Source of the DNA: Alphaproteobacteria bacterium
Lineage (GTDB): Bacteria > Pseudomonadota > Alphaproteobacteria > Micavibrionales > Micavibrionaceae
Assembly (NCBI GenBank): GCA_021776075.1
Contig: JAJFGQ010000040.1
Span: forward strand, 1-64,000
Direction of reading: 5' to 3'
Length of the DNA stretch: 64,000 nt
Below the pieces are notes generated by a model. That model was not told the origin of the DNA. It searched no databases and worked only from the letters and a program-made list of their open reading frames with translations. The translations under genes and the position numbers were made by a program. Positions 16,277 to 63,751 of the stretch are shown here, piece by piece; the stretch's first letter is position 1; each line of letters opens with the position of its first letter.

Positions 16277-18109
16277 ATGTGCGGGATAATCGGAATACTT
16301 GGTGAAAAAGACGTAGCACCGTTGCTGGTGGAGGGCCTGAAGCGTCTGGAATATCGCGGCTATGACAGCGCCGGAATAGCCACGTTGTCTAACGGCCATA
16401 TCACCCGCTGCCGTGCCGAAGGCAAGCTGGTCAATCTTGAAAACAAGCTTGAAAAAGACTCCCTTAACGGCACAACGGGGATCGGCCATACGCGCTGGGC
16501 AACCCATGGCGGTCCGACGGAGAGCAATGCCCACCCTCATGCTACAGAAAAAGTAGCCGTCGTGCATAATGGTATTATTGAGAATTATGCCGCCCTGAAG
16601 ACCGAACTGGAGCAGCATCAATGCCGCTTTGAAACTGATACGGACACCGAAGTTGTAGCGCATCTGGTAACGCATAATCTGAAACAGGGCATGAACCCGC
16701 AGGATGCCGCTAATGCTGCACTTGATCGGCTGGAGGGCGCTTTTTCCGTGGCCATGATCTTTGCCGGTGAGCATAATTTATTGATCGGCGCACGACAAGG
16801 CACGCCTCTGGCTGTCGGTTATGGCGATGGCGAAATGTATGTCGCCTCTGATTCCTATGCCCTCGCCCCCCTCACTCGCAAAATCTGTTTTCTGGAGGAT
16901 GGCGACCGCGTAGCCGTCACCCGCGAGGGAGCACAAGTTTATACCAACGACAATAAATCGGTAGAGCGCGAAATACGGATCACAGCACAATCCGGTGCGA
17001 CAACCGGCAAAGGTGAGTTCCGACATTTCATGATTAAGGAGATCTACGAACAACCTGCTGTGATCGGCGATACGCTCAATAGCTTCGTTAACCCGACCAC
17101 CAGCCATATCACCATACCGGATAATGTGCTGGCAGCCCTTGAAGCCGCACCTCGCATCACGATTATTGCCTGCGGCACGGCTTTTTATGCGGCGATGACG
17201 TCCAAATACTGGTTTGAACAAATTGCGCGGATGCCGGTGGAAATCGACATTGCGTCCGAATTTCGCTACCGCGAAGCGCCCATGCCGGAAGGCGGTGTAG
17301 CCCTGTTTGTTTCACAGTCCGGAGAAACGCTCGATACGCTGGAGGCACTGCGCTACTGCAAAAAAGAAAAACAACATATTCTATCCATCGTCAATACGAT
17401 TGAAAGCACGATTGAGCGCGAATCGGACATGGTCCTGCATACGCTGGCCGGGCCGGAGATCGGCGTAGCGTCAACAAAGGCCTTCACGACACAGCTGACA
17501 ACACTGGCTTGTATTGCGTTAGCGCTAGCCGTGAAAAAAGGCACGATAGACACCACACAGGAATCAGAAATGTCCGAGGCTTTACGCAGTATCCCGGCGC
17601 AGGTCGCTTCTATTCTCAAGCAGAATGAAAAGCAAATTCAAGATATATCCCGTGATGTTTTTGAAGTGCAGGATATGCTCTATCTGGGGCGCGGTCTGCT
17701 TTACCCGATTGCTATGGAAGGCTCCCTCAAACTGAAAGAAGTCTCCTATATCCATGCCGAAGGCTATGCGGCAGGTGAGTTAAAACACGGCCCCATTGCG
17801 TTACTCGATGATAATATGCCGGTTGTTGTTCTCGCACCCGGTCATGACAGATTATTTGAAAAAACAGCTTCCAATATTCAGGAAACAGTTGCGCGCGGCG
17901 GGGATGTTCTCCTGATCACAGACCAAACAGGCGCTGATAGACTTTCAGATTGTGTGAAATGGAGCGTTGTGATTGACGACGTTCATTCTTTTGTCGCCCC
18001 GATCCTGTATACGATCCCGATACAGCTTCTCGCCTATCATGTCGCCGTCACCAAAGGTACGGATGTCGACCAGCCGCGTAATCTGGCGAAGTCTGTCACG
18101 GTGGAGTAG
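16277..18109 (+). CDS. glmS: Glutamine-fructose-6-phosphate aminotransferase (isomerizing)
   Basis: Makes glucosamine-6-phosphate from fructose-6-phosphate and glutamine, the first step to UDP-GlcNAc. The 610 residues begin MCGIIGILG with the catalytic Cys2 of the N-terminal glutaminase, which continues with GHTRWATHGGPTESNAHPH. Two SIS sugar-phosphate isomerase domains follow (about 290-430 and 460-600, with SQSGETLDTL), ending in the conserved PRNLAKSVTVE. AGGAGA lies 7 nt before ATG 16277. No glmS ribozyme-like leader is present; the upstream gene's stop abuts the start. Confidence 0.97.
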   Translation: MCGIIGILGEKDVAPLLVEGLKRLEYRGYDSAGIATLSNGHITRCRAEGKLVNLENKLEKDSLNGTTGIGHTRWATHGGPTESNAHPHATEKVAVVHNGIIENYAALKTELEQHQCRFETDTDTEVVAHLVTHNLKQGMNPQDAANAALDRLEGAFSVAMIFAGEHNLLIGARQGTPLAVGYGDGEMYVASDSYALAPLTRKICFLEDGDRVAVTREGAQVYTNDNKSVEREIRITAQSGATTGKGEFRHFMIKEIYEQPAVIGDTLNSFVNPTTSHITIPDNVLAALEAAPRITIIACGTAFYAAMTSKYWFEQIARMPVEIDIASEFRYREAPMPEGGVALFVSQSGETLDTLEALRYCKKEKQHILSIVNTIESTIERESDMVLHTLAGPEIGVASTKAFTTQLTTLACIALALAVKKGTIDTTQESEMSEALRSIPAQVASILKQNEKQIQDISRDVFEVQDMLYLGRGLLYPIAMEGSLKLKEVSYIHAEGYAAGELKHGPIALLDDNMPVVVLAPGHDRLFEKTASNIQETVARGGDVLLITDQTGADRLSDCVKWSVVIDDVHSFVAPILYTIPIQLLAYHVAVTKGTDVDQPRNLAKSVTVE

Positions 18110-18268: not shown

Positions 18269-18379
18269 ATGATCAGCAACATAGCAGATCACTTGATTTC
18301 TGACGTTATAAAAGAAGCATTTCCAACCAGCGTGGTCGGAGAAATGCCATATATTAAAAAAAACAGGGGTAGAATATGA
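18269..18379 (+). CDS. Candidate 36-residue small protein overlapping the nuclease-fusion gene
   Basis: An ORF of 37 codons including stop runs from ATG 18269 to TGA 18377-18379. Its stop overlaps the ATG of the 1551-residue gene in the ATGA configuration seen elsewhere in this window. The product begins MISNIADHLISDVIKEAF and is amphipathic in its first half and basic at the end. A GGGA lies 5-6 nt upstream of the start. The ORF may be a translated leader that couples expression of the large gene, or a real small partner. It is short enough to be chance. Confidence 0.35.
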   Translation: MISNIADHLISDVIKEAFPTSVVGEMPYIKKNRGRI

Positions 18380-21300
18380 GCGAGAAAGATCTCAAACGTA
18401 TATTTGAGCGCGCGGCTGTTTACCATCCGAATTTTTTTCCGGCAGAAATCGGGATTGACGCGCAGAAATACCATCAGGGCGAACCGGCGGAGTATGCCGC
18501 CGTGCAGTTCTACGCTGAACAGGGCTGGATTCATGGTGTTCACGCCAATGTTGTGCCTTTGGAAGATGGCGGCGTCCGCGTTGAAATCGACCACTGGGTA
18601 CACCGTCCCGACGGCAAAAATATCCTGACACGTTTTATGGAGCTCGAAGCCCACAACAAGCAGGATGACGAAAAAGGGCAGGTAACGGTTGTCGTCGATA
18701 AGATCACATTGCAAGGCAAGACACTGGATGTTTCCAATCGTAAAACGCTGAACAGTGCCGTTTCTACCTGCCAGCATATTTTAGGAACGTTAAGGCGAGA
18801 GCGCCGGATGCCGCGCCTGAATAAAGCGGCCGAAAAAAATGGATTAAAAACCAAGCCGTTACCGGGAACATATAAAGACGGCAATGCCCGTTTTGCTTAT
18901 GAAGCCGGTAAAAAAGAAACCCGGAAACTGTTAAATGTTCCGGCCCGGTTTGTCATGGCACTCACTGGTTTTAATGAAGAAGGACAAGCAGCAAAACCCG
19001 GTGCCTCCGTTCTTTTTGATGCGACACAACGCGACCCTGACGATGCAGGGAAAGAATATACTTTATATACCCGGCTGACCAAGGGAGCGAAAAAGGGCAA
19101 TAGCACCGTTTCCATGCGTTTGGCCCGAAAAATAAATGACAGGGAAGAGCCCTATACCATTCACCGTGTTGCACAGATGAAATTTTCTCCGGCGACCGGC
19201 AAAACGGATGAAAAAGAGAATTTTGTGGCCTTACGCGATGTCGAAATAGATGGTCGTAAATTACAAGCCAGCGACCACCGCGATATGGTGCGGGCTGTCC
19301 ATTTTGTACGGGATAGTGTGATGCAAACCCATCACGGCGTTATGCCCGATATGTCCGATATTCTCGGCTACACGAATTTACAGGGTGCTATCAGCGGCTT
19401 ACCACCGCTCGATAAAAAAGAAAAACAGCGCTACACATTTCGTGTCCTTGGCGGCAACCCGACGGGGCCCCGTTTGTTTAAGGAAGATGACGGCATTGGC
19501 GCGAATTGTTTCCTTCACCTTTATGAATGGCATGATGACAAGGGCAAATATAATGCCGAATCCGTTATGGTTGATTGCGGCACGACCCCGCTTTCCCGTA
19601 AGAAAACGGGCTTTGACGGGATGATGAGCTTTGCGGGTGAATATTTTGAACACCGCTTTAACACCAAGCATAAACCGAAACATAAAGTCGATACACTCGC
19701 CATTACTCACCCCCATCTTGATCACTTTCTGGGACTGCCGCATCTTTTGCTGGCCGGTTACGTTGTGGATCATGTCGCTTGCAGTCTGGCGACGAAATTA
19801 TACATAGAAAAAGCCTGCACGATGCTTGATGTGCCGCCTGAATATATGCCAAAAAAATGGACGGTTATCAAAAAAGAAGAAGATTTAAAAGTCGGAAAAT
19901 TCGACATATCCTTCGGCTGGGTTCCGCATTCTGCCATTACCAACTGGATTAATGTTAAAACACCAGAAGGCAGCACCTTCCACTTCAGTGATGCCAAAGC
20001 CGACCCTCATGTTATGAGCCATCCACCGGCGAATGAGGAACGGGTTGCCTCCATGAAGCCCACATTGGCTGTCGTCGATTCCACAAGATCCATGAAAGAC
20101 GATGAAACACAGTCTGAAAAAGAACTGGAAGACGAAATCGTTGCCTTCGCCAAGGAACATCCAGACAAAGGGATGATTGGGTTCCACATTGGCAGTAACG
20201 CAGCACGGATGACGACTTTCGTGAATGCCTATGGCCGTACGGGACGGCATACGGTTATTTTTGGCGCGGCCATACAATTTTTGAAAAAGGTACTGGATGC
20301 CGTCGGCTTACGGTCCGGTTTCGGCTTAAAAGCGCACGCACGGGAAAAATTTGGCACAAAGGTTTTGAATTACACGCCCAATGCCAAGGGTGCCAAACAG
20401 ATTCTGGACGGCGCACCTGGAAAACAGGGGATTTTGGGCACAGGTACGCATAACGAAATCATGTCCATCGCCAACAGACTGATTGAAAATAAAGACCGAA
20501 AAAATCTTGGTTTTATCACGCCGGATAAATACGTCATTGTCATGTCCCAGACGGGAATCCCCGGCAACCGGGCAGAGTGGCAGAAAATGATCGACTGGAT
20601 GGAGCGTCGCGGATTCGAATACCGCGTCATTCACGCCTCTGGCCATGAGGGCAAAAAAGGTATCAAGAAAATGATGGGCTGGGCCGGTGCGCCTTTCGGT
20701 GTGGTCACACATGGCAATGTGTTTCAGAGAGGGCACGCAGAAGATATCGTGAAAGAACTGGATATGAAAGCCCTGAATCCGGGGGAACAGGACGTCATTC
20801 AGGTCTCGGATAAAAATGGCTGCAAGATTGTCGCGCAGGAACCTTCCACGATGGTTTATTTTTCTATTAAAAGACCGGATGGGCAGCATTGGGGCGGCGG
20901 TGAAGATGTTGAGTATTATGCTCATATGGTCAACCCTGAAATCCGCACACCTGTCGGCGATATGTTAAAAGACATCAGAGGCATGAAACGTAACAGCGGG
21001 GGGATGCCCAACCATTACGAACGCAGCCTTAATGATCTGCTGGACAAAGACCCCGTTCTGAATATGGAGGGCTCCTCTTTGCAATCCACGCAAAAGCGCG
21101 TCAAAATATCATTGCCGGACTATCTGGTGCAAAACGGCATTTTACGCCGCATCGTTTATGATTGTGAAACAACGCAATTGGGCCGCCACGCCTGGATTAC
21201 GCAGTTTGCCGCCAAGCAATCGGACTGGATGGGTAAAGGTCGTGTAAAGCGGATGAATATCCGTCAGACATTACCGACATATGTATTACCTGATCTTGAC

Positions 21301-23031
21301 GCCTTGCTCGTTACGGGTGTGCTGCCTTCTTCTCTGTATAAAACCGGTAAAAACTATCATCCGCCCCGGCGTTTTTATCACGAGATCGTCAAATTTCTGC
21401 AGAACTCAAAATCCTTTGGGCTGAAAGGGCAGAAAAGGATATGGATAGACCGGGCCGAAAAACATCAGGACCCTTCAAAATTGAAATCAAAAGCTAAAAG
21501 TAAAGACGATCCCTATATGAAACAGAGTCAGGGCTATTCCTTTAAGGTGGAGAAGAAATTTAAAGATGCAAAATCCATTACAACCAAAACACTGATCGGT
21601 GGCTTTAATAATACACGGTCTGATGATGTCTGGTTGCAACATGCCGGGTTTCGGGCGGGTGCTCTGCGTTATTCTCCGACAAATACAGGCGGTATGCGCC
21701 GTTTTGATCTGCGGAATATGGCCCGAATGTTTGCTTATTTGCGGCCTGATAAGTTCAAAGTACGTAAAAAACCGGAAAACCCTGAGTTTCTTGATTTTAC
21801 AGTGAAAGGCATTATGAAGGCTAACCGCCTGAATTACGGTGGTTACAAGGCCCATGATGCCGGCGCTGATGTGGAAATGGAAGATAGCGCCATTTTGGGT
21901 CATATGCTTAAAATTGACCCGGAGCTTTTTACCCAGAACGTCCTGAACGCCACGCCCAAAGAGGTCAAAAAGCTTCTGGCAGGCACTCATAACGGCATGC
22001 TCTATCCCCGCCATCTGGTCACCTATATTAATACACTGGCCAAAGATGCCAAAGCAAATGTGGGCGTATATGTCGGACGGTCTACGGATTCAAAACACAG
22101 AAACAAGGCGCTCCTGTTCAATGTTTCTGATTTTGATCCCAAAGACTTTAAGGACATGTCAGCACAGCAATTATCTGAAATTATGAGTAGTCCTAAACAT
22201 CGCCTGAATAAGGCTTTTGAAGTTGTGCAAATCAATAAACATCCTTTGTTGTCGTCTGCCGACCGGGGTTTTGCTGTGGGTGCAAACCGGGAAACATCGA
22301 TTGAAGCCATGAAAGGGTATAAGCATTTTATTGAACGTCATCCGCAAATGGCGGCAAAAATGATTCAGGCCATGGAAAGGGCACGCTTTATACCGGATCA
22401 TGATCCGGGAACACCGATGGAGCAACGTATTTATTCGGCGCCCTTTATGGAGATGAGTTCACATGACAGGGAACTGGCAAAATTGTTTGATCCCAGTGAT
22501 GAACAGGAATTCGCAGATCCGAAATTTGCTGATAATTTGAACCGGGAACGGGCGCATGCCATTGATAAATTCCATGGTTTGCAAGTTCGTGAGCGTTATG
22601 TTGCGGTGATGTATCAGATTGAACGAGAGTATGAACAATTATTTGGCCAGAAAAAGAAATATCTCCACGATCAGGATCGTGCGCGGGAGCGCGCCAAGGA
22701 AAAGGCGCGAGTTCACGGCCTTATTGATACGGAAGCTGTATCGCTGGGACGTTTGGATGCGCAGATCAAACGGGCGCACCAAAACTGGGATGAGCGCATG
22801 AAAGATAAAACGCCAGCGGAACGTAAATTGAGCACGCGTATTTTGCATGAAACTGAAGCGCTTGTGCAGGATATAAAAACAAAAATTGCGAATAATGATC
22901 CGGAATGGGCCCTAACGAAAGAAGATTACGCCCGTCTCGGTCTTGATGACAACGTACCATACGGACGTTACCGTCCTCCCGCATCAAAAACGGCTGCACC
23001 GCGCCCAAAGAAAAGAGCCCCCGGCCAATAA
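18376..23031 (+). CDS. RNase J-like MBL/beta-CASP nuclease fused to an exonuclease I-like DEDDh domain
   Basis: A 1551-residue cytoplasmic protein. Residues about 1-150 and 185-335 look like two copies of one unknown domain (both end in a GK/RxLxxS... MP stretch). Residues about 360-800 carry metallo-beta-lactamase motifs: THPHLDH (His445, His447, Asp449, His450), VPHS (His518), FSDAK (Asp539), a beta-CASP SQTGIPGN (724-731), then HASGHEG (753-759) and VVTHG (776-780), the RNase J pattern. Residues about 916-1390 match E. coli exonuclease I (SbcB): YDCETT (Asp929, Glu931), FNNTRSDD (1077-1084), AHDAGAD (His1160, Asp1165) and VQINKHPLL (1284-1292), so all DEDDh residues seem present. The last 150 residues are charged and helical. 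Role unknown; nucleic acid degradation or repair is inferred. Confidence 0.75.
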   Translation: MSEKDLKRIFERAAVYHPNFFPAEIGIDAQKYHQGEPAEYAAVQFYAEQGWIHGVHANVVPLEDGGVRVEIDHWVHRPDGKNILTRFMELEAHNKQDDEKGQVTVVVDKITLQGKTLDVSNRKTLNSAVSTCQHILGTLRRERRMPRLNKAAEKNGLKTKPLPGTYKDGNARFAYEAGKKETRKLLNVPARFVMALTGFNEEGQAAKPGASVLFDATQRDPDDAGKEYTLYTRLTKGAKKGNSTVSMRLARKINDREEPYTIHRVAQMKFSPATGKTDEKENFVALRDVEIDGRKLQASDHRDMVRAVHFVRDSVMQTHHGVMPDMSDILGYTNLQGAISGLPPLDKKEKQRYTFRVLGGNPTGPRLFKEDDGIGANCFLHLYEWHDDKGKYNAESVMVDCGTTPLSRKKTGFDGMMSFAGEYFEHRFNTKHKPKHKVDTLAITHPHLDHFLGLPHLLLAGYVVDHVACSLATKLYIEKACTMLDVPPEYMPKKWTVIKKEEDLKVGKFDISFGWVPHSAITNWINVKTPEGSTFHFSDAKADPHVMSHPPANEERVASMKPTLAVVDSTRSMKDDETQSEKELEDEIVAFAKEHPDKGMIGFHIGSNAARMTTFVNAYGRTGRHTVIFGAAIQFLKKVLDAVGLRSGFGLKAHAREKFGTKVLNYTPNAKGAKQILDGAPGKQGILGTGTHNEIMSIANRLIENKDRKNLGFITPDKYVIVMSQTGIPGNRAEWQKMIDWMERRGFEYRVIHASGHEGKKGIKKMMGWAGAPFGVVTHGNVFQRGHAEDIVKELDMKALNPGEQDVIQVSDKNGCKIVAQEPSTMVYFSIKRPDGQHWGGGEDVEYYAHMVNPEIRTPVGDMLKDIRGMKRNSGGMPNHYERSLNDLLDKDPVLNMEGSSLQSTQKRVKISLPDYLVQNGILRRIVYDCETTQLGRHAWITQFAAKQSDWMGKGRVKRMNIRQTLPTYVLPDLDALLVTGVLPSSLYKTGKNYHPPRRFYHEIVKFLQNSKSFGLKGQKRIWIDRAEKHQDPSKLKSKAKSKDDPYMKQSQGYSFKVEKKFKDAKSITTKTLIGGFNNTRSDDVWLQHAGFRAGALRYSPTNTGGMRRFDLRNMARMFAYLRPDKFKVRKKPENPEFLDFTVKGIMKANRLNYGGYKAHDAGADVEMEDSAILGHMLKIDPELFTQNVLNATPKEVKKLLAGTHNGMLYPRHLVTYINTLAKDAKANVGVYVGRSTDSKHRNKALLFNVSDFDPKDFKDMSAQQLSEIMSSPKHRLNKAFEVVQINKHPLLSSADRGFAVGANRETSIEAMKGYKHFIERHPQMAAKMIQAMERARFIPDHDPGTPMEQRIYSAPFMEMSSHDRELAKLFDPSDEQEFADPKFADNLNRERAHAIDKFHGLQVRERYVAVMYQIEREYEQLFGQKKKYLHDQDRARERAKEKARVHGLIDTEAVSLGRLDAQIKRAHQNWDERMKDKTPAERKLSTRILHETEALVQDIKTKIANNDPEWALTKEDYARLGLDDNVPYGRYRPPASKTAAPRPKKRAPGQ

Positions 23032-23549: not shown

Positions 23550-23711
23550 GATTTTTCTCCATAATTTATATGTTCCAGATCACTTCCACTAGGTGGCCTA
23601 TTTTTACACCTCTTGTCAAAGATAATTTGCAGGGAAAGACGTAGATTCTTACCCAAGATGATTATAGAGTGATAGACGAATTTAATTTATTTCCAAATGG
23701 GAGGCTCTTTC

Positions 23712-24839
23712 ATGGAAAAGCAGGTTGTTATATGTGGCTACAAACGTTCCCCTTTTCATTTCGCTAATAAGGGGGCGCTCATAAAAACACGCCCTGACAA
23801 TCTGGTGGCAGACACTGTAAAAGCGCTTGTAAGCGCTACGAATGTTAACCCGGACGACATTGAAGACCTTTTAATGGGCTGCGCCTTTCCGGAGGCAGAA
23901 CAGGGTTTTAATCTGGGCCGCATTGTTGTGCAGCTTGCCGGTTTTCCGGTTTCTATGGGCGGCGTAACGGTCAACCGTTTTTGCGGTTCGTCTATGACGA
24001 CGATACAAATGGCGGCAGGCTACATTCAAATGGGTGCGGGGGACGTCTTTATCTGCGCCGGTGTTGAGTCTATGACACGCATTCCTATGGGCGGGTTCAA
24101 CCCCATGCCAAACCCCGGACTGGTGGAAACCTATCCGCAAGCTTACATGGCGATGGGCGAAACAGCGGAAAACCTGGCAGAAAAATATCAAATTACACGG
24201 GAAGAACAGGACGAATTTGCACTTCTTTCTCATCAAAAAGCAGCTAAAGCGCAAGATAACGGATTTTTCAAAGATGAAATTGTTCCCTGCGGTGATATTA
24301 CAGATGACGGGTGCATTCGCGCCGGGACCACACGGGAAGCATTGGGAGGATTAAATCCTGCTTTTGATAAAAACGGTACGGTTACAGCCGGTACAGCTTC
24401 GCCGTTAACCGATGGCGCCGCCGCCGTTCTTATCGCTTCAGAAGACTACGCTAAAGCCCACCAATTGCCGATTATGGCGCGGATCAGATCCGTTGGCGTA
24501 TCGGGGTGCAAGGCAGAAATTATGGGGATTGGGCCTGTACCCGCGTCAAACAAAGCACTGGAACGGGCTGGGCTGGATATAGATACCATCGATATTGTTG
24601 AGCTTAATGAGGCTTTTGCTGCCCAGTCGCTTTCTGTTGTAAAAGAACTGGGGATTCATCAGGATAAAATTAATCTGGACGGCGGTGCGATCGCTCTGGG
24701 GCATCCTCTTGGTGCCTCTGGCGCGCGGATTACAGGTAAGTTGGCCAGTCTTTTACAAAGAGAGAAAAAAGAAATTGGTCTGGCAACCATGTGTATTGGC
24801 GGCGGTCAGGGAACCGCTATTATTCTGGAAGCAGCATAA
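23712..24839 (+). CDS. fadA: Acetyl-CoA C-acyltransferase (3-ketoacyl-CoA thiolase)
   Basis: Catalyses the last step of beta-oxidation, splitting 3-ketoacyl-CoA with CoA. The 375 residues have the nucleophile Cys in NRFCGSSMTTIQMAAGYI (about 86-103), the active-site His in GHPLGASGARI (about 331-341), and the second Cys in CIGGGQGTA near the end. I start at ATG 23712, which has GGGAGG 7 nt upstream; an in-frame ATG at 23697 lacks a ribosome site. The stop overlaps the next start (TAATG). Together with the FadN-like gene two positions down it resembles the Bacillus fadNAE set. Confidence 0.93.
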   Translation: MEKQVVICGYKRSPFHFANKGALIKTRPDNLVADTVKALVSATNVNPDDIEDLLMGCAFPEAEQGFNLGRIVVQLAGFPVSMGGVTVNRFCGSSMTTIQMAAGYIQMGAGDVFICAGVESMTRIPMGGFNPMPNPGLVETYPQAYMAMGETAENLAEKYQITREEQDEFALLSHQKAAKAQDNGFFKDEIVPCGDITDDGCIRAGTTREALGGLNPAFDKNGTVTAGTASPLTDGAAAVLIASEDYAKAHQLPIMARIRSVGVSGCKAEIMGIGPVPASNKALERAGLDIDTIDIVELNEAFAAQSLSVVKELGIHQDKINLDGGAIALGHPLGASGARITGKLASLLQREKKEIGLATMCIGGGQGTAIILEAA

Positions 24840-26062
24840 TGACTGACGAAACCTTTTTGGAAACACTCGGTTTTAAGACAAATGAACCGGACATAGACCA
24901 TGTCGAACGACAATTTGTTGATCGCGTTAAAGAACGGATTCAAACCTTTCAGGATTCTTATGATGAAGAGGAAGTCAAAAAGACCGAAGAATGGCTAACA
25001 ACATTTTATCAGGGCTTTTTCCAATACAGCATGCAATGGGCACATCGGGAAATGCAAAAGAAGAAAGATGTTGTCAACCATCCCGATGCACCGGACCTGA
25101 AAAAAGCAGCACGCGCCATTTTAGAAGATTTACAAAAACATATTATCGAAGTCTCTTTCGCCTACATGCACATCAACCGCTTTATGACATTGCTTCGTGA
25201 TGAAATAAAAAGGGAAGAAATCCGCATGGGCGCTGCGGTACCCACCGATTTTAAATGGACCTCAGATACAGGTGATGTGCTGACCCGCTATAAAAAACAG
25301 AAAAAAAACCTGATCCAAAGCAACGAACGCATAAAAGAAGCCCGCCACATTTTGGAAAGCATTGAGGATGACTTCATTCTTATTAAGAAAAGCATCTCTT
25401 CTTTGCTTGGTAAGGATAAATCAGAAACTTATGTGCGGCGCTTAATGTCCGCCTTTCGGATGGCTGATTTTAAAAAAGCACGCAACACATTGAAGGACAT
25501 TGGCGGCACTAAAAAACGATTTGGCCTGGATCAAAAGACACACACACAGCTTCAGACCAATTTGCAAAAAGCGGGAGGCCATATTTTACAGGTGCTGGAA
25601 GACAAACAGGACATATTGGAAGGTGCAGATAACAAGCTCTATTTAAGAGTTTTGGAAACGAGTATGATTTATAATGCGCAAATCAGGGAACTCAAAAAAA
25701 TCAGAGGATTTCTGGCCAAATATCACCTGCCCTACATGCAATATAAACTGAACCTGTTGCAGCATCTGAAAGAAAAATTACTGGTCATCGGGTCTCTGGA
25801 GAATCTGATGACTCTATATAAGCGGCTAATTAGCGGGGTTGCCCAACCTCTGGCGAGCATTAAAGACGTGAGATTATATGAGAGCAAAGTTTTGGGCCAT
25901 GTGACTTATCTGCTGGATGGCCATTTTCAGGAAACAACAACAATCGTCACGCGGGCAAACGAAACGGTACAGGAATTTCGTGACAACCGTGAAGATTTTG
26001 AAGAATTCAGCGAAATGGAACTTGAAGAAATTACTGTTGATAATGAGCAAGATGCCGGTTAA
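24839..26062 (+). CDS. Unknown coiled-coil protein inside the fatty-acid oxidation operon
   Basis: A 407-residue hydrophilic, strongly helical protein with no signal peptide or membrane segment. Heptad-like stretches run through about 90-200 and 250-340. I do not recognise a family. Its ATG overlaps the thiolase stop (TAATG) and it is followed 21 nt later by the HAD/enoyl-CoA hydratase gene, so it is translated together with two beta-oxidation enzymes. A scaffold, regulator or unrelated passenger are all possible; the sequence does not decide. Confidence 0.75.
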   Translation: MTDETFLETLGFKTNEPDIDHVERQFVDRVKERIQTFQDSYDEEEVKKTEEWLTTFYQGFFQYSMQWAHREMQKKKDVVNHPDAPDLKKAARAILEDLQKHIIEVSFAYMHINRFMTLLRDEIKREEIRMGAAVPTDFKWTSDTGDVLTRYKKQKKNLIQSNERIKEARHILESIEDDFILIKKSISSLLGKDKSETYVRRLMSAFRMADFKKARNTLKDIGGTKKRFGLDQKTHTQLQTNLQKAGGHILQVLEDKQDILEGADNKLYLRVLETSMIYNAQIRELKKIRGFLAKYHLPYMQYKLNLLQHLKEKLLVIGSLENLMTLYKRLISGVAQPLASIKDVRLYESKVLGHVTYLLDGHFQETTTIVTRANETVQEFRDNREDFEEFSEMELEEITVDNEQDAG

Positions 26063-28522: not shown

Positions 28523-28565
28523 CCGGGGTAATAATTGGACATAATGATTTTTATGCGTGGTATTT

Positions 28566-30101
28566 ATGGGCGACCCAAACACTGTGCCTCCCGACACTAA
28601 ACCGGCAAAGGGCACAATAGGCAATGCAGAGCTAAAAGAAGCGCTAAAGCTTGCGCGGCAGGGCGATACGAATTTTGTATCCCTGATTGCCGGTTTAGCT
28701 CCCCCTGACTCCGGGAACAATGATGATTTTGAAGCAGAGCGGGTCAATGCTTTTTCAGCAGGTATTGACGCTTTGGCTGAAAATAACCGCGAAGATGCCA
28801 TTGAAGCGGCTTATCAGTTATCAGGGCTTGTAGAGCGCGGTTCTCTTTTGCACCGGGCAGCGATGGAAAAAATTGTTCTCCATACAGATGAACGGGTGAT
28901 TGATCATTTTGACTCAGCATTAGCAGCTTTGCGGTTTGTCATCGCAGAAGGACGGCCTTACGGCGCTCCACAGGAACAGGCCCTGTATCAATCATTCGCC
29001 CTACTTGATCGTTTAGCGAGCAAGGACACAGAACAAACCCTTCTGGAAGCCGGACGCCTTGTCTTTACCGCAGAAAAAGCAAGTTGGAAACGGCAGGACC
29101 ATTTATACGGTTTTTTAGAAATCAGAAAACATCTGGAAGACCCGGACTTCAGAGAGACACATGAAGCCGCTAAAGACTATAGCGCTCACATTCAGGATCC
29201 CGCTATACGCAAAAAATTTGGAAATCTGGTCGCAGCACTCAGTGATGACAGCCTGTCTACCATGCTGGATGACGTGGAAAGTAATATTGAATCTGTGAAC
29301 GGCATCGCGCCTCTTACACAAAAAGCACTATACACATTTTACGAACTCTCTGAACACTGGGAACAGAAAAACCCGCAAGACGCTCTGACCTCTCTTGTCG
29401 ATTTTGCCTTTATGGCTGTTGACCATAAAGAGTACGGGCTACTGGAAAATAAATTTCATTCTCTGCATCGTGACGCCACAGACAAATATTTCGCCCGCAT
29501 TGAGCATTTTGCAGCTACGGATTTAAAAACGGCCATCGCCTCCCTGTTCAATACAATGACCAAATGTTATGAACGTAATGACAGCCACAGTGTTCTGGCT
29601 GTTGAATCCGAGAAAAAGCTTGCACATCATTTAAAGGCACTCATCCGGCAAGACCGGGATGCAGCCAGAGAATATGTTAAACACAGAATACCGGCCTCGA
29701 CTTTCAGTCACGAAAAAATATTTAGCCCCCTATCTGGAAAACTGGCTTATGCGGACACACTGCATAAAACGGCAAAACTTATGGAACTGGATGAGGCTAC
29801 CCTTAAGAAATCAGCCATAGGAAAAACACGTTTAAAATTGCTGTTTAATAAATATTCCCTTTACGACTGGGCCAAAGAAAACAAATCAAAACTTGATTTG
29901 TCGACCACCTCCGCGGGCGCTGTTGCCGGCGTTCTTACCTACGCCAATCTCGCGCCACCTTCTTTATGGGGCATATTTATAACGGGACTGACTTTTGCCG
30001 CAGGAAGCCGCATGATCGGTGCTATGACAAGAAATGGCATGATTTCCGGCAAACGTCATTTCAAAAGAGAACTGGAAAGCAAAGTTATACAGCCTAGCTA
30101 A
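28566..30101 (+). CDS. Unknown helical protein with a C-terminal hydrophobic hairpin
   Basis: About 511 residues, almost all predicted helical, with short repeated helix-turn-helix patterns that could be an alpha-solenoid (for example residues 20-330). Near the C-terminus two hydrophobic stretches (AGAVAGVLTYANLAPPSLWG and IFITGLTFAAGSRMIGA) may insert in the membrane, followed by a basic tail. No enzyme motif is visible. The start is uncertain: ATG 28566 has no clear ribosome site and GTG 28557 is in frame. It converges with the next gene, 5 nt between stops. Its promoter shares TTGACATAA with three other unknown genes. Confidence 0.7.
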   Translation: MGDPNTVPPDTKPAKGTIGNAELKEALKLARQGDTNFVSLIAGLAPPDSGNNDDFEAERVNAFSAGIDALAENNREDAIEAAYQLSGLVERGSLLHRAAMEKIVLHTDERVIDHFDSALAALRFVIAEGRPYGAPQEQALYQSFALLDRLASKDTEQTLLEAGRLVFTAEKASWKRQDHLYGFLEIRKHLEDPDFRETHEAAKDYSAHIQDPAIRKKFGNLVAALSDDSLSTMLDDVESNIESVNGIAPLTQKALYTFYELSEHWEQKNPQDALTSLVDFAFMAVDHKEYGLLENKFHSLHRDATDKYFARIEHFAATDLKTAIASLFNTMTKCYERNDSHSVLAVESEKKLAHHLKALIRQDRDAAREYVKHRIPASTFSHEKIFSPLSGKLAYADTLHKTAKLMELDEATLKKSAIGKTRLKLLFNKYSLYDWAKENKSKLDLSTTSAGAVAGVLTYANLAPPSLWGIFITGLTFAAGSRMIGAMTRNGMISGKRHFKRELESKVIQPS

Positions 30102-55133: not shown

Positions 55134-56507
55134 CTAATAGGCCTGTGGCGATACAGGCAGACAATCGTCAATCAAGCGACAGGCGTTTAGAGCCTCTGTC
55201 TTATTGTAGCCCTTCAATCTTCCCCTGAACAACCATCCCTTATTCGTTCTCAACGGTGCTATAATAGCCGTCACCGTCGATAAATCAGCCGGCAGACTAT
55301 TCCGCGCCAAAGTAATAGCCCGATCCGTTTTTACCCGGCTTTTAAAAGCACCAACCTGAATAGCCCAGTTTTTCACCTCTTCCTTTTTCTCATCTTTCTC
55401 AACAAGAAGCATTCCATTCTCCTTAAGGGCAGCAATACCCAAAAGCCCCGTCTCCAGCCGTTTGGAAACCGCCGGATCATAATCACCTTCACCAATCATC
55501 GTGCTAAAGGTTTTGTTCTGCAGTATCGGATTCAAAACAGCCCATCTGGCAGGTTGCCCCGCTGCCGGTACAATATTGTTCAAAGAAGCCATCCTAACGG
55601 AAGAATCAGGCTTTCGTGACGGTACAGGAACAGAGGCTACAGTCATCTGCGGCAATTTAGCGAACGCCTTATCAAGAAGACGGGCCATATGGGCATTGCG
55701 GCTTTTTGCCGTCCGCCCACCAAAAACAATCCCTATAACACGGTGATTATCACGCCGGGCCGACGCAGCCAGATTAAATCCGGAAGCCTGTATATAGCCC
55801 GTTTTTAAGCCATCCATTCCTCTATAGCTATCCATCAGACGATTATGATTACGATATGTTTTACCGCGATAAGTAAACTTTCGCGTGGAAAAATAATGGT
55901 AATATTGGGGATATACGGTCATCAAGTAACGGCCAAGCTTGGCCATATCACGGGCCGTTGTCACCTGTTTTGAATGATGCAAACCGGACGCATTGCGAAA
56001 TCGCGTACGCGTCATACCCATTTCCCGCGCTTTATTATTCATCATAACAGCAAACTGACTTTCCGTTCCGGCTATTTTCTCACCCAGCGCCACAGCAACA
56101 TCATTCGCCGATTTGGTTACGAGAACATAAATGGCGTCCTCCACCCGTATTGTAGACCCCACCGGCAAATTAAGTTTGCTGGGAACCATTTTAGCAGCGT
56201 GCCGGGACATAGTCACCCGATCGCGCAGCCGCAACCGCTTTTCTTCCAAGGCTTCGAACGTCATAAGAAGAGTCATCATTTTTACCAGAGAGGCCGGATA
56301 CAAGACTTTATCCGCACGGCTCTGGTGAAGAATAACACCGGTATCAGCATCCATAACAATAGAGGCATAACGGGGATTCGATTTTGCCCATGACGCGTGA
56401 GAAGACGCGCAAACAATCAACCCGGTCAACCCGATAAGAAACGCCACAGCAAACAAGCTGCGAAAACAGAAAAAAGAGGAGCTATACTTTTTGTAAAACC
56501 CGTTCAT
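55134..56507 (-). CDS. D-alanyl-D-alanine carboxypeptidase with SPOR domain
   Basis: A 457-residue PBP5/6-type (peptidase S11) D,D-carboxypeptidase that trims peptidoglycan stem peptides in the periplasm. A hydrophobic signal segment (about 15-38) precedes the catalytic domain with SLVK (Ser73, Lys76), SAN (133-135) and KTG (235-237). A linker leads to a C-terminal SPOR domain (about 370-450, beginning NWAIQVGAF), which binds denuded glycan strands at the division site. The pilin-like gene follows by 14 nt. A second, SPOR-less paralogue is next upstream. Confidence 0.93.
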   Translation of the reverse strand: MNGFYKKYSSSFFCFRSLFAVAFLIGLTGLIVCASSHASWAKSNPRYASIVMDADTGVILHQSRADKVLYPASLVKMMTLLMTFEALEEKRLRLRDRVTMSRHAAKMVPSKLNLPVGSTIRVEDAIYVLVTKSANDVAVALGEKIAGTESQFAVMMNNKAREMGMTRTRFRNASGLHHSKQVTTARDMAKLGRYLMTVYPQYYHYFSTRKFTYRGKTYRNHNRLMDSYRGMDGLKTGYIQASGFNLAASARRDNHRVIGIVFGGRTAKSRNAHMARLLDKAFAKLPQMTVASVPVPSRKPDSSVRMASLNNIVPAAGQPARWAVLNPILQNKTFSTMIGEGDYDPAVSKRLETGLLGIAALKENGMLLVEKDEKKEEVKNWAIQVGAFKSRVKTDRAITLARNSLPADLSTVTAIIAPLRTNKGWLFRGRLKGYNKTEALNACRLIDDCLPVSPQAY

Positions 56508-56610: not shown

Positions 56611-57528
56611 CTATTGCGGAACAATTCGATTATATATTTTTTCCTCTTCTTTTTCTGCTTTCAATTTATCAAAAGCATCTTCCAAAATATTTTTCATGAG
56701 CCGGTTTCTTTCCCACTTACTGGCAGCACCAAAAACAACAGCAACGACTCTCTTTCCTTTTTTGACAACCGAAGTCGCAAGATTATGCCCCGATGAGCTT
56801 ATATAGCCGGTTTTAATGCCATCCATTCCTTCATAGTAGGACATTAAATTATTATGATTTGTGTAGGTCGTGCTATTAAATCTGAATTCAGGTCTGGAAA
56901 AAAATTGTTCATATTTTAAGGGGTAGTTCTTGATAAGATGACGGCACAACAAAGCCATATCATGAGCGGTTGTAACATGCCTTCTATGGTTTTTTTTGTG
57001 ATTCAAGCCCGAAGCATTCACAAAATACGTATGCATCATGCCTATGGCTTTTGCTTTTTTATTCATTGCTTTTACAAAGTCTTTTTCAGTTCCGGCAACA
57101 GCTTCCGCCAACGCTACAGCCAGATTATTGGATGATATGATAGAGGTCGCTTCAATCGCTCTGTTTACTGTAATTAAATCACCGGGTTTCATCCTCGTCC
57201 GCCGACTAAAAGGGATTTTAGCCGCATACTCTGAAATTTTTATTTTTTGATCCAGAGCAAGATGGCTCCCCTCTAAAGCATCAAACACCAAAACCAATGT
57301 CATGATTTTTGTCAGAGAAGCCGGATGAACAGATTTTTCCGCACTGTGTTGAACGAGGGTGCCCCCTGTTTGAAAATCAATCGCCATATCAGACCGTTTT
57401 GAAACACCGGTTGATGTATGATGAGCTTGCGCTTCAGTCACGAAATAAGGCATTACCGCCAGTGAAAAGGCCAAAGCAAGAGTGCCCGCCGCTTTCTTTA
57501 TTGTTTTTAAATTCCCCATTCGTCCCAT
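56611..57528 (-). CDS. D-alanyl-D-alanine carboxypeptidase, short paralogue
   Basis: A 305-residue peptidase S11 enzyme with a signal peptide (about 1-35, ending EAQA), SLTK (Ser71, Lys74), SNN (133-135) and KTG (239-241). It lacks the SPOR and the C-terminal PBP5 domain, stopping soon after the catalytic fold with a charged helix. A second ATG at 57519 is also possible. About 100 nt separate it from the SPOR-containing copy, with no obvious terminator, so they could form one transcript. Confidence 0.9.
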   Translation of the reverse strand: MGRMGNLKTIKKAAGTLALAFSLAVMPYFVTEAQAHHTSTGVSKRSDMAIDFQTGGTLVQHSAEKSVHPASLTKIMTLVLVFDALEGSHLALDQKIKISEYAAKIPFSRRTRMKPGDLITVNRAIEATSIISSNNLAVALAEAVAGTEKDFVKAMNKKAKAIGMMHTYFVNASGLNHKKNHRRHVTTAHDMALLCRHLIKNYPLKYEQFFSRPEFRFNSTTYTNHNNLMSYYEGMDGIKTGYISSSGHNLATSVVKKGKRVVAVVFGAASKWERNRLMKNILEDAFDKLKAEKEEEKIYNRIVPQ

Positions 57529-58997: not shown

Positions 58998-61292
58998 ATG
59001 CTCTCACGTAATTTAGAACAAACATTACACAATGCCCTTTCCATGGCCGGTGATCGTCACCATGAATATGCCACGCTGGAACATCTTCTGATGGCCCTGA
59101 CAGAAGATCAGGATGCCATGGCTGTTTTACGGTCCTGCGGCATTGTTTTATCTGATTTACAGGAGCAGTTGGCGCATTATCTTGATAACGAACTGGCCTA
59201 TTTAATTGACATCCATATAGAAGAATCAAAGCCTACAACGGCATTCCAGCGTGTATTGCAACGCGCAGCTATCCATGTTCAGTCATCGGGGCGGGAAGAA
59301 GTAACGGGTGCCAATGTCCTGGTCGCACTATTTTCAGAACGGGAGAGTCATGCCGTTTATTTTCTGCAGGAACAGGATATGACGCGCTTTGATGCGGTTA
59401 ATTATATTTCCCACGGTATTGCAAAAGTACCGGGACAAAGTGAAACACACATACCAGAGGGTACGGAATCCGGTGAAGAAGAAAAAACCGTTAAAACCGG
59501 GCGAGATGCACTGGATGCTTATTGCGTTGACCTGAACGAGAAAGCACGGGAGGGAAAAATAGATCCCCTTATTGGCCGGGAGCAGGAGGTTGACCGCACG
59601 ATACAGATATTATGCCGCCGGGCAAAAAATAACCCGCTTTATGTTGGTGATCCGGGTGTTGGTAAAACAGCTATCGCTGAGGGGCTGGCGAAAAGAATTG
59701 TTGAAGGCGAAGTGCCTGATGTCTTAAAAGATGCCACCATTTTTTGTCTAGATATGGGCTGTTTACTCGCAGGCACCCGCTATCGGGGTGATTTTGAAGA
59801 ACGCATGAAAGCGGTTATTAACGAAATCGAAAAAGTTGACGGCTCTGTCCTGTTCATTGATGAGATTCATACAATTATTGGGGCAGGCGCAACAAGCGGC
59901 GGTGCTATGGACGCCTCAAATCTGTTGAAACCCGCTTTGTCCAACGGCTCTATTCGCTGCGTTGGCTCTACGACTTATAAGGAATACAGAAATTATTTTG
60001 AAAAAGACCGGGCGCTGGTGCGCCGATTCCAGAAAATTGACATCAAGGAACCAAGTGTCGAAGATACGATTAAAATTCTTCAAGGACTCAAATCCCACTA
60101 TGAGGACCATCACAAAATAAAATACACAAATGACGCCATAAAGGCGGCAGTGGAACTGTCGGATAAATATATTGGCGACCGTAAATTACCGGATAAAGCC
60201 ATTGATATTATTGACGAAGTCGGCGCGGCGCAAATGCTGGTCCCCGCCTCAAAACGTAAAAAGAAAATCACAGTAAAAGACATTGAAGCTGTCGTCGCCG
60301 CTATTGCGCGCATACCGGCAAAAAGTGTCAGCAAAAATGATAAGGAAGCTTTGAAAAGTCTGGAGCGCGACCTGAAAACACTCGTATTTGATCAGGATCA
60401 AGCTATTAGTATTCTGGCCGATTCCATTAAAATGGCGCGCGCCGGATTACGTGAACCGGAAAAGCCGATCGGTAGTTACCTGTTTTCCGGTCCGACCGGT
60501 GTCGGGAAAACGGAAGTCGCCCGGCAATTGGCTAATACGTTGGGAATAGAACTGCAACGCTTTGATATGTCCGAATATATGGAGCGTCACGCCATTTCCC
60601 GTCTGATCGGTACACCACCGGGTTATGTCGGGTTTGAACAAGGCGGATTGTTAACGGATGCCGTTGACCAAAACCCGCACCTTGTTCTGCTGCTGGATGA
60701 AATTGAAAAAGCCCACCCCGATATCTTTAACATTCTGTTGCAAGTGATGGACTACGGAAAGCTAACGGACAATAACGGAAAAACAGTCGATTTTAGAAAT
60801 GTTATACTCATCATGACAACAAACGCTGGCGCACAAGAACTCGCCAAGGCCCCCATGGGGTTTGAACGCGATATACGAATGGACGACGACCAGGAAGAAA
60901 TCAAACGTCTGTTTACGCCGGAATTTCGTAACAGGCTGGATTCCATTGTGCCCTTCAAAGCCTTGCAACCAAAAACGATCATTAAAGTCGTTGATAAATT
61001 TATTATGCAGCTCGAAGGACAACTGGCAGACCGACAGGTTGTTATTGAACTCTCTGACGAAGCCCGAAACTATCTTGCCAAAGTCGGCTATGACCCCTCT
61101 ATGGGTGCCCGCCCACTCGCCCGTGTTATTCAGGAAAAAATCAAACGGCCACTGGCTGAAGAACTCTTATTCGGGGAACTTTCCGATGGGGGTGTTGTCC
61201 TCATTGATCTGGATGACGAGGCTCTTACTTTCTCGTACGAAAATCAAAAGCCCCGCAAAAAGAAACATTCTATAGATTCAGAAATTGCGTAA
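58998..61292 (+). CDS. clpA: ATP-dependent Clp protease ATP-binding subunit ClpA
   Basis: AAA+ unfoldase that feeds substrates to ClpP. The 764 residues have an N-domain (about 1-145), D1 with Walker A GDPGVGKT (217-224) and Walker [15 protein letters not shown], and D2 with Walker A GPTGVGKT (498-505), [19 protein letters not shown] and the C-terminal [14 protein letters not shown]. The ClpP-docking loop appears as MGFERD, in the position of IGL in E. coli. There is no middle domain as in ClpB. It is in an operon with clpS and is followed by a paralogue 110 nt later. Confidence 0.95.
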
Positions 61293-61402: not shown

Positions 61403-63751
61403 ATGTCTAATCTTAAAGAACTTCTGAAAAAAGCACATGAATACGCTGAAATATATAACCATAAAGTAGTCACATTCGAACATCTCCTCCTCGCTCTGAT
61501 GGAAGATGAGTCCGTGCGCACGGTCATGAAAAGAGCCAACCCCCATATGATCGAACTTTTGGAGGCTGAGCTTGATACTTATCTGACACAGGCAGCGCCT
61601 TTACGAAATCACGGAACAGACACCCCTTCTTTTTCCACAGATGTGAAAAACCTGCTTCAATATGTTCGTGACGATCTTTCTCTGAACCGGTTCAGAAAAA
61701 TGGGCCTTAAATTGCTTGTTGCCCTTACGCAAGCTCAGGCAAATCCGACTCTTATATTTCTGTATAAAGGCGGCATAGATAAGTTTAATATTGAAACTTA
61801 CATAGAAAATAGTGGGGCACACCGCAATAAAAAAGACCGGCCCATTATATTTCCCAATGAAAACGGAAACAAACCTGATACGGGAATGGTAACAATCCGG
61901 AAAAAGAAACCGGGAAAAGCTTTACAGGCATTCTGTGAAAATTTGAATGAGAAGGCCGAAAAGGGCAATATTGACCCGGTTATAGGGCGTTCCCGTGAAA
62001 TCAAGCAGATCGTGGAAACTTTATGCCGCAGAAAGAAAAATAATCCTGTCCTTGTTGGTGATGAGGGCGTTGGAAAAACAGCCGTTGTTGAAGGTCTGGC
62101 CAAGGATATTGTCGAAGGCAACGTACCGGATGCCATGAAAACAGCAACGATTTATTCCCTTGATATGGGAGCTTTGCTGGCCGGAACAAAATTCCGGGGT
62201 GAGTTTGAGGCGCGCCTGAAACAGATTCTGGATGAACTGGCAGAACGGGAAGATGAAAAACCCATCCTGTTTATTGATGAGCTTCACTCGATCATCGGTG
62301 CGGGCTCCGCAGAAGGTTCTACAGATGCCTCCAACCTCCTGAAGCCGGCTTTAGCAAGCGGTTCTTTGCGCTGTATCGGTGCCACAACACGGGATGAACA
62401 CAGAAAACATATCCAGAAACAAAAGGCGCTGGCACGGCGTTTTGACCCGGTTCAGATCACAGAGCCGGATATGGAGTCCACGGTAGAAATTCTCAGAGGA
62501 TTACAGCCAAAATACGAAAAATATCATGGCGTCAAATATACAGATGAGGCCATTAAAGCCGCCGTAGATTTGGCTATACGCAATATCCATGACCGTAAAC
62601 TGCCTGATAAGGCTGTCGATGTCATGGATATGGCGGGATCTACCCAGAAACTGAAAGGCAAGAAAAAGATCGACGTTACCGTTATTGAAGAAATCGTGTC
62701 GCGCATGACCGGTATCCCTCAGGCTAATTTGAGCCATGACGATAAAAAAGCCATGAAAGATCTGGATCTGCAGTTAAAAGCCGTTATCTTTGAACAGGAT
62801 GAAGCCGTTCAAAAAGTCGCATCGTCCCTTAAAAGATCACGGGCCGGATTGGGCGATGAGAATAAACCTATCGGTTCCTTCCTGTTTGTCGGCCCCACAG
62901 GGGTCGGAAAAACAGAACTTGCGCGCCAATTGGCCCGCATACTGGATATTAAATTTCTACGCTATGATATGTCGGAATATATGGAGAAACATTCGGTTGC
63001 CCGACTCGTTGGTGCACCTCCCGGTTATGTCGGGTATGATGAAGGCGGACAACTGGTAGAAGACGTCCACAGAAATCCTTACTCTCTCATTCTCATAGAT
63101 GAGATAGAAAAAGCTCATCCCGATGTTAAAAAAGCGTTTCTACAGGTTCTAGATGACGCCCGGTTAACAGACGGTCAGGGTCGAGTCGCGAATTTCAAAA
63201 ACACGATTATTATAATGACCAGTAACGCAGGAACAGCTAACCTGCAGAAAAAAGGCCTTGGTTTTGGTGCCGGAAACCGGGAAAACGAGGCAAAAACAGT
63301 CATCAATGATACTTTTGAACCGGAATTTCGGAACCGGCTTGACGCTATGGTTACTTTTAATTCTCTGGGCCCTAAAACAATGTCAAAAATTATAGACAAG
63401 TTTCTGGGCGAGCTTGATGCCAAGCTGACACATAAAGGCATGTCTTTATCCGTATCGGATCAGGCCCGTGAATATCTTGCAGAAAAGGGCCACGACCCGC
63501 TTTTTGGCGCGCGCCCTGCAAAGCGGCTTATTCAACGGGAGATTTCGGACCCCCTGTCTGATAGCATTCTCGCCGATATACTGGAAAAGGGCGATCAGGC
63601 CGTTATCAACTGGGAAGACGCAAAAGAAGATAGCCCCGCAGGTCTGAGGCTAACCTTTAACAAAGGCGCGGCCGGGAAAGAAGCTTCCAACGATAATGAA
63701 GCTGAAAAACCGTTGAAAAAGAAAACAAGGTCAGGGCCAACGCCGGGCTGA
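61403..63751 (+). CDS. Second ClpA-type AAA+ unfoldase, tandem paralogue
   Basis: A 782-residue paralogue of the clpA just upstream, with the same domain order: N-domain (about 1-145), D1 Walker A GDEGVGKT (219-226), [15 protein letters not shown]2 Walker A GPTGVGKT (497-504), [19 protein letters not shown]. The N-domain differs clearly from that of ClpA, so substrate or adaptor choice probably differs. The ClpP loop position holds LGFGAG, a hydrophobic-Gly-Phe tripeptide that could still dock ClpP. The tail has a Lys-rich end. The 110-nt gap has its own possible control; GGGAGA lies upstream of the ATG. ClpP itself is not in the window. Confidence 0.9.

Follow-up and report, generated by a model that had tools for sequence, protein, structure and literature searches.

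A putative dual nuclease of the Micavibrionales joins RNase J-type and exonuclease I-type modules in one chain and may feed nucleotide catabolism

Can one polypeptide combine the means to degrade nucleic acid from both ends, and what would such an enzyme be for? Separate 5' and 3' enzymes are the rule where both ends of a strand are degraded. The question is raised by a gene at positions 18376–23031 on the forward strand of a 64,000-nucleotide stretch of DNA (the window), which comes from a 2.29 Mb genome of the Micavibrio group with a completeness of 93%. Its 1551 codons are open without a stop and encode a single giant protein, here called the fusion, and the ATG is preceded by a Shine-Dalgarno-like CAGGGGT read from the sequence (18364–18370, forward strand). 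The gene is further supported by full-length homologues and by the ratio of nonsynonymous to synonymous divergence (dN/dS) between close orthologues; the closest named homologue, from Micavibrio sp. UBA6139, is 64% identical across the full length. The original prediction for this DNA had proposed that the chain carries both an apparently complete metallo-beta-lactamase (MBL)/beta-CASP set and a DEDDh set of the SbcB type. All motifs were indeed located at the residues it had named, namely THPHLDH at 444, H518, D539, HASGH at 753 and THG at 778 in the first half, and D929, E931, NNTRSDD at 1078, H1160, D1165 and VQINKHPLL at 1284 in the second.

The MBL/beta-CASP nuclease module spans residues 350–835 (19423–20880; forward strand, as are all features of the fusion given below) and was recognized with Pfam, PDB, NCBIfam and a homologue profile. 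The Pfam match to Lactamase_B_2 exceeded the family cut-off, and the single sequence matched Bacillus subtilis RNase J1 in PDB (3zq4, E 9e-14, residues 433–782), a match that reached 5.9e-64 with the homologue profile. NCBIfam matched RNase J1 with an E-value of 3e-24, but the 66.9 bits reached for TIGR00649 missed its curated cut-off of 400. All metal ligands and motifs aligned with those of RNase J1: the HxHxDH signature within THPHLDH 444–450 (metal-binding motif 2, 19705–19725), the histidine and aspartate of MBL motifs 3 and 4 (the metal ligands His518, 19927–19929, and Asp539, 19990–19992), and the beta-CASP motifs B (HxSGH, here HASGH 753–757 with His757, 20632–20646) and C (HG, here THG 778–780 with His779, 20707–20715). 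The alignment stopped at residue 442 of the 555 of RNase J1, and the C-terminal domain of RNase J is missing. In an unrooted tree, the canonical RNase J proteins of the same genomes formed their own clade with a support of 100, apart from the modules of the fusion and of its split counterpart described below, and the genome of the window also encodes an ordinary RNase J. Because the module lies outside the canonical clade, coexists with an ordinary RNase J and aligns only up to the C-terminal domain, the family name RNase J given to this half was too strong, whereas the assignment of its fold and catalytic residues held. Judged by these, the MBL half is best described as a putative distant RNase J-type member outside canonical RNase J.

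The exonuclease I (ExoI)-type module, comprising the DEDDh core and an SH3-like region, covers residues ~920–1360 (21133–22455) and was delimited by profile alignment and the NCBIfam ExoI model NF008746. That model again matched (E 1.6e-15) but stayed at 56.7 bits against a cut-off of 260, while the single sequence recovered ExoI structures in PDB (4rg8, E 2e-5; 1fxx, E 5e-4), with values of 2.1e-45 and 1.5e-37 when the homologue profile was used. In the profile alignment, D929, E931, D1083, H1160 and D1165 correspond to D15, E17, D108, H181 and D186 of Escherichia coli ExoI, which places motif I at Asp929-Cys-Glu931 (21160–21168), motif II at NNTRSDD 1078–1084 (21607–21627), where the metal ligand is the first aspartate of the pair, D1083, and motif III at His1160 to Asp1165 (21853–21870). 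The alignment spans E. coli ExoI residues 12–356 and so includes the SH3-like region; for the helical C-terminal domain, the match weakens past about residue 1383 of the fusion. By predicted fold and catalytic residues this half is a distant ExoI member, and profile searches placed neither half in an unrelated family. Predicted structures of the two halves, made from two-row alignments, had confidence too low for use (predicted local distance difference test scores of 34 and 37). The two assignments bear on the idea that the fusion is a second RNase J with an attached 3' exonuclease, serving RNA turnover or processing: its MBL module is closest to RNase J, and RNase T is among the DEDDh relatives matched by the Exo half. 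This nevertheless appears very unlikely: these bacteria also have an ordinary RNase J, the closest relative of the Exo half is the DNA-specific ExoI, SH3-like region included, and the DeoC partner presented below implies deoxyribose.

A survey of homologues recovered the same fusion in 20 of 114 genomes, belonging to Micavibrionales families f1, f2 and f7, together with recurring neighbour genes. The 20 full-length fusions, whose identity falls to ~20%, keep both catalytic sets. H447, H450, H518, D539, S755, H757, H779, D929, E931, D1083, H1160 and D1165 are invariant, D449 is an aspartate in 19 of the 20 (the remaining one being an unread base), and H445 is replaced by glutamate in two. The close orthologues of G021 and G077 differ with a dN of ~0.01–0.02 and a dS of ~0.5–0.7 in all four modules. 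Trees of the MBL and of the Exo module yield the same two fusion clades. Both genomes are single contigs (2,458,610 and 2,481,983 bp), and their intact fusions, together with the conserved chromosomal address described below, led us to reject an assembly artefact or chance.

Beyond what had been predicted, the survey revealed an operonic counterpart in which the two nucleases are encoded by separate genes, partner genes for a 5'-nucleotidase and DeoC, and conservation of the ~350-residue N-terminal domain. The split form, first met in G013 as neighbouring genes for an N-domain/beta-CASP part and an ExoI part, is an operon a-b-c present in 22 of the 114 genomes (again f1, f2 and f7), about 20 of them spread over at least 13 genera, with genes that mostly overlap or sit a few tens of bases apart. 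Gene b (~1010–1260 residues) encodes the N-domain with the MBL/beta-CASP module and gene c (~1070–1350 residues) the ExoI-like nuclease. Gene a (~790 residues, with a range of ~770–900; for example L114 3392–5797, L117 3610–5922 and L119 2262–4625) is present in 22 genomes, nearly always directly 5' of the beta-CASP gene, and matched no family in a Pfam scan. The b and c proteins are otherwise little conserved, but H439, H441, D443, H444, H520, D547, H932 and H954 are invariant in 20 b proteins, and D26, E28, D213, H325 and D331 in 20 c proteins. No genome carries both forms (hypergeometric P = 0.009, with relatedness ignored and with absences weakened by incomplete genomes), and four genera hold the two forms in different species. 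The nucleases are thus permanently paired, as fusion or as operon. That they are kept paired in two different layouts is the strongest argument that the two halves act together, and a fused chain plus a sister operon with all catalytic residues intact constitutes strong evolutionary evidence for joint action. Families f3, f5 and f6 also encode relatives of both nucleases; there the genes are free and unlinked, and their products have ~530 residues.

The products of ExoI, and of RNase J acting as an exonuclease, are 5'-mononucleotides, the substrate of 5'-nucleotidase. A 5'-nucleotidase of family PF06189 (E 2e-55) is encoded by the next gene after the fusion in six loci of one fusion clade (L028, L030, L031, L055, L056 and L057), with an overlap or a spacing of at most ~37 bases. 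The family is present in 16 of the 20 fusion genomes versus 2 of the 94 others (P = 5e-14, relatedness ignored); both of the latter carry the split form, so that all 18 nucleotidase genomes possess one form or the other. When adjacent pairs were left out, the association persisted (Fisher 4e-8 at the level of genomes and 0.006 at that of genera). No consistent further partners were seen near the non-adjacent nucleotidases. In four split loci (L114, L115, L116 and L127), gene c is directly followed by a gene for a DeoC/LacD-family aldolase. The two tested against NCBIfam, L114 and L116, scored above the cut-off for deoxyribose-phosphate aldolase (TIGR00126); the DeoC-family gene of L115 is 92% identical, and that of L127 matches PF01791 with 78 bits. 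The gene after c in L128 encodes a HAD-type hydrolase. Proteins of ~390 residues that shared blast cluster C3 with DeoC were set apart from it, Pfam having given them no DeoC match.

Taken together, these predictions suggest that the fusion could be a cytosolic bifunctional exonuclease that feeds the breakdown of single strands into nucleotide catabolism or salvage, a reading to which we give a probability of about 0.48. For the RNase J-type module we envisage an attack on single strands (of RNA, perhaps also of DNA) at the 5' end or internally, and for the ExoI-type module the removal of nucleotides from the 3' ends of single-stranded DNA (perhaps RNA); one molecule would in this way reduce its substrate to 5'-mononucleotides. 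In the fusion form, the nucleotidase would convert nucleoside and deoxynucleoside monophosphates to nucleosides; in some split operons, the aldolase would turn deoxyribose-5-phosphate into acetaldehyde and glyceraldehyde-3-phosphate. That the nucleases act jointly on one molecule, channel their products and serve such a physiological role we infer from folds, intact catalytic sets, pairing and gene associations, as we do the activities, polarity and substrates; the nucleic acid may stem from prey, from foreign DNA or from turnover within the cell itself. In Bdellovibrio, prey DNA is digested and its nucleotides are reused (PMC7925074).

Several observations weigh against this reading. The window's own genome yielded no PF06189 gene at its 93% completeness, and DeoC stands beside just four of ~20 split operons. 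The presence of the fusion is patchy even within genera, unlike that of a housekeeping pathway. Micavibrio aeruginosavorus is reported to synthesize its nucleotides itself and to be without known nucleotide transporters (PMC3189940), so it is not evident why salvage would be required. By eye, the fusion shows no evident signal peptide, which makes extracellular digestion of prey contents unlikely and would confine the enzyme to the inside of the cell. Finally, this reading leaves gene a and the N-terminal domain unexplained.

The same patchiness, and the mutual exclusion of fused and split versions, would also fit an anti-phage or anti-plasmid defence, with the nucleases breaking up incoming foreign nucleic acid and the nucleotidase exhausting the supply of nucleotides. 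Part of the history points this way: in the tree, a fully supported join links the fusions of G034 (f1) and G055 (f7) across families, suggesting a degree of horizontal transfer, and tRNA genes adjoin some fusion or split loci (L057 6281–6355, L028 4642–4731, L060 13285–13361 and L041 6167–6243), possibly marking insertion points. The Exo half moreover matches the PADLOC model of reverse transcriptase-associated SbcB (RTasSbcB) with 3.6e-18, and an interaction between ExoI and the immunity of DRT9, one of the defence-associated reverse transcriptase (DRT) systems, has been described (PMC12483538). The rest of the record, however, makes defence unlikely. The fusion tree mostly matches that of ordinary RNase J, and clade A occupies a single ancient address in f1 and f7, with the conserved order glmU-glmS-[small genes]-fusion-prmA-FYDLN-fadA-fadB; this shared address indicates that the fusion is old and was lost often. 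The surroundings hold housekeeping genes (gltB, typA, amtB and an RNB-domain nuclease) and not other defence genes. Neither a reverse transcriptase nor another known defence partner was found beside fusion or split loci, the scanned neighbours being housekeeping genes, nucleotidase, DeoC or genes without a Pfam family. Viral contigs contained no fusion, and the phage and plasmid collections gave RNase J-like matches only. Beyond the order, no fusion was detected in the sampled 385 genomes of the class and 398 of the phylum (E 1e-45). As a separate observation, a stand-alone SbcB-like nuclease of 457 residues adjoins a reverse transcriptase (RVT_1, 9e-24) at L040 8656–11644 in G022, forming a DRT-like pair; like RTasSbcB in general it shares the SbcB-like nuclease with the fusion, but it lacks a beta-CASP partner.

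A role in DNA repair or in the processing of single-stranded DNA was likewise considered. The Exo half is SbcB-like and a search for a separate SbcB-like gene in the fusion genomes found none; moreover, the RecJ3/4-aRNase J complex of Haloferax volcanii (PMC10470531), in which an RNase J homologue works with a DNA/RNA exonuclease, is by analogy the nearest functional precedent. Its partner, on the other hand, is a RecJ of the DHH family, the archaeal proteins are separate, and the parts of that report used here describe no link to a 5'-nucleotidase or DeoC. The fusion is missing from most f1 genomes, which argues against a core repair function, no adjacent repair genes were seen, and nucleotidase and DeoC point elsewhere, all of which renders a repair role quite unlikely.

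Set against known systems, the parts belong to known families and their combination matched nothing described; as the original prediction had supposed, no such fusion, nor any report on the fusion gene in Micavibrio, was found in the literature searched. RNase J1 lacks the ~350-residue N-terminal domain and the ExoI half, and E. coli ExoI shares the DEDDh set and the SH3-like region but is not part of a fusion and has a shorter C-terminal part, from which that of the fusion has diverged. The free proteins of f3, f5 and f6, a second beta-CASP and an ExoI-like protein, are relatives of both halves from the same order, yet they are non-adjacent in the loci examined and without the N-domain. The fusion is likely a machine for complete nucleic-acid breakdown that has not been described before. 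More broadly, though with somewhat less confidence than in the exonuclease reading itself, the Micavibrionales may possess a nucleic-acid-destroying system in two mutually exclusive architectures, which digests from both ends, passes its products to nucleotide catabolism and serves predatory or epibiotic adaptation or defence. Nature offers several variants of it, fused or split and with nucleotidase or with DeoC, that suit tests of the coupling between breakdown and recycling; their hosts are related to a predatory bacterium whose nucleic-acid digestion is poorly understood.

The N-terminal domain (residues 1–349, 18376–19422) matched nothing in Pfam or PDB and probably handles substrate or partners. 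Residues ~35–160 have a homologue of 188–310 residues (hhalign 93%, 3.6e-7), the product of a small gene of its own that is found directly upstream of the fusion in seven related loci; the gene is frequent there in the window's clade and was lost from the window itself. At the other end, the divergent C-terminal tail (residues 1361–1551, 22456–23028), mostly past the ExoI match, may stand in for ExoI's helical C-terminal domain.

Within the window, the conserved address is represented on the forward strand by glmS upstream (16277–18109) and, towards its downstream end, by the thiolase gene fadA (23697–24839), both identified by Pfam. Around fadB lie long open reading frames without a significant Pfam family (24791–26062 and 28557–30101, forward strand), the first of which is conserved between fadA and fadB in four related loci. 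Further along, the window contains tandem D-alanyl-D-alanine carboxypeptidase genes (55137–56507 and 56614–57528, reverse strand) and tandem genes for ClpA-type AAA+ chaperones (58998–61289 and 61403–63748, forward strand).
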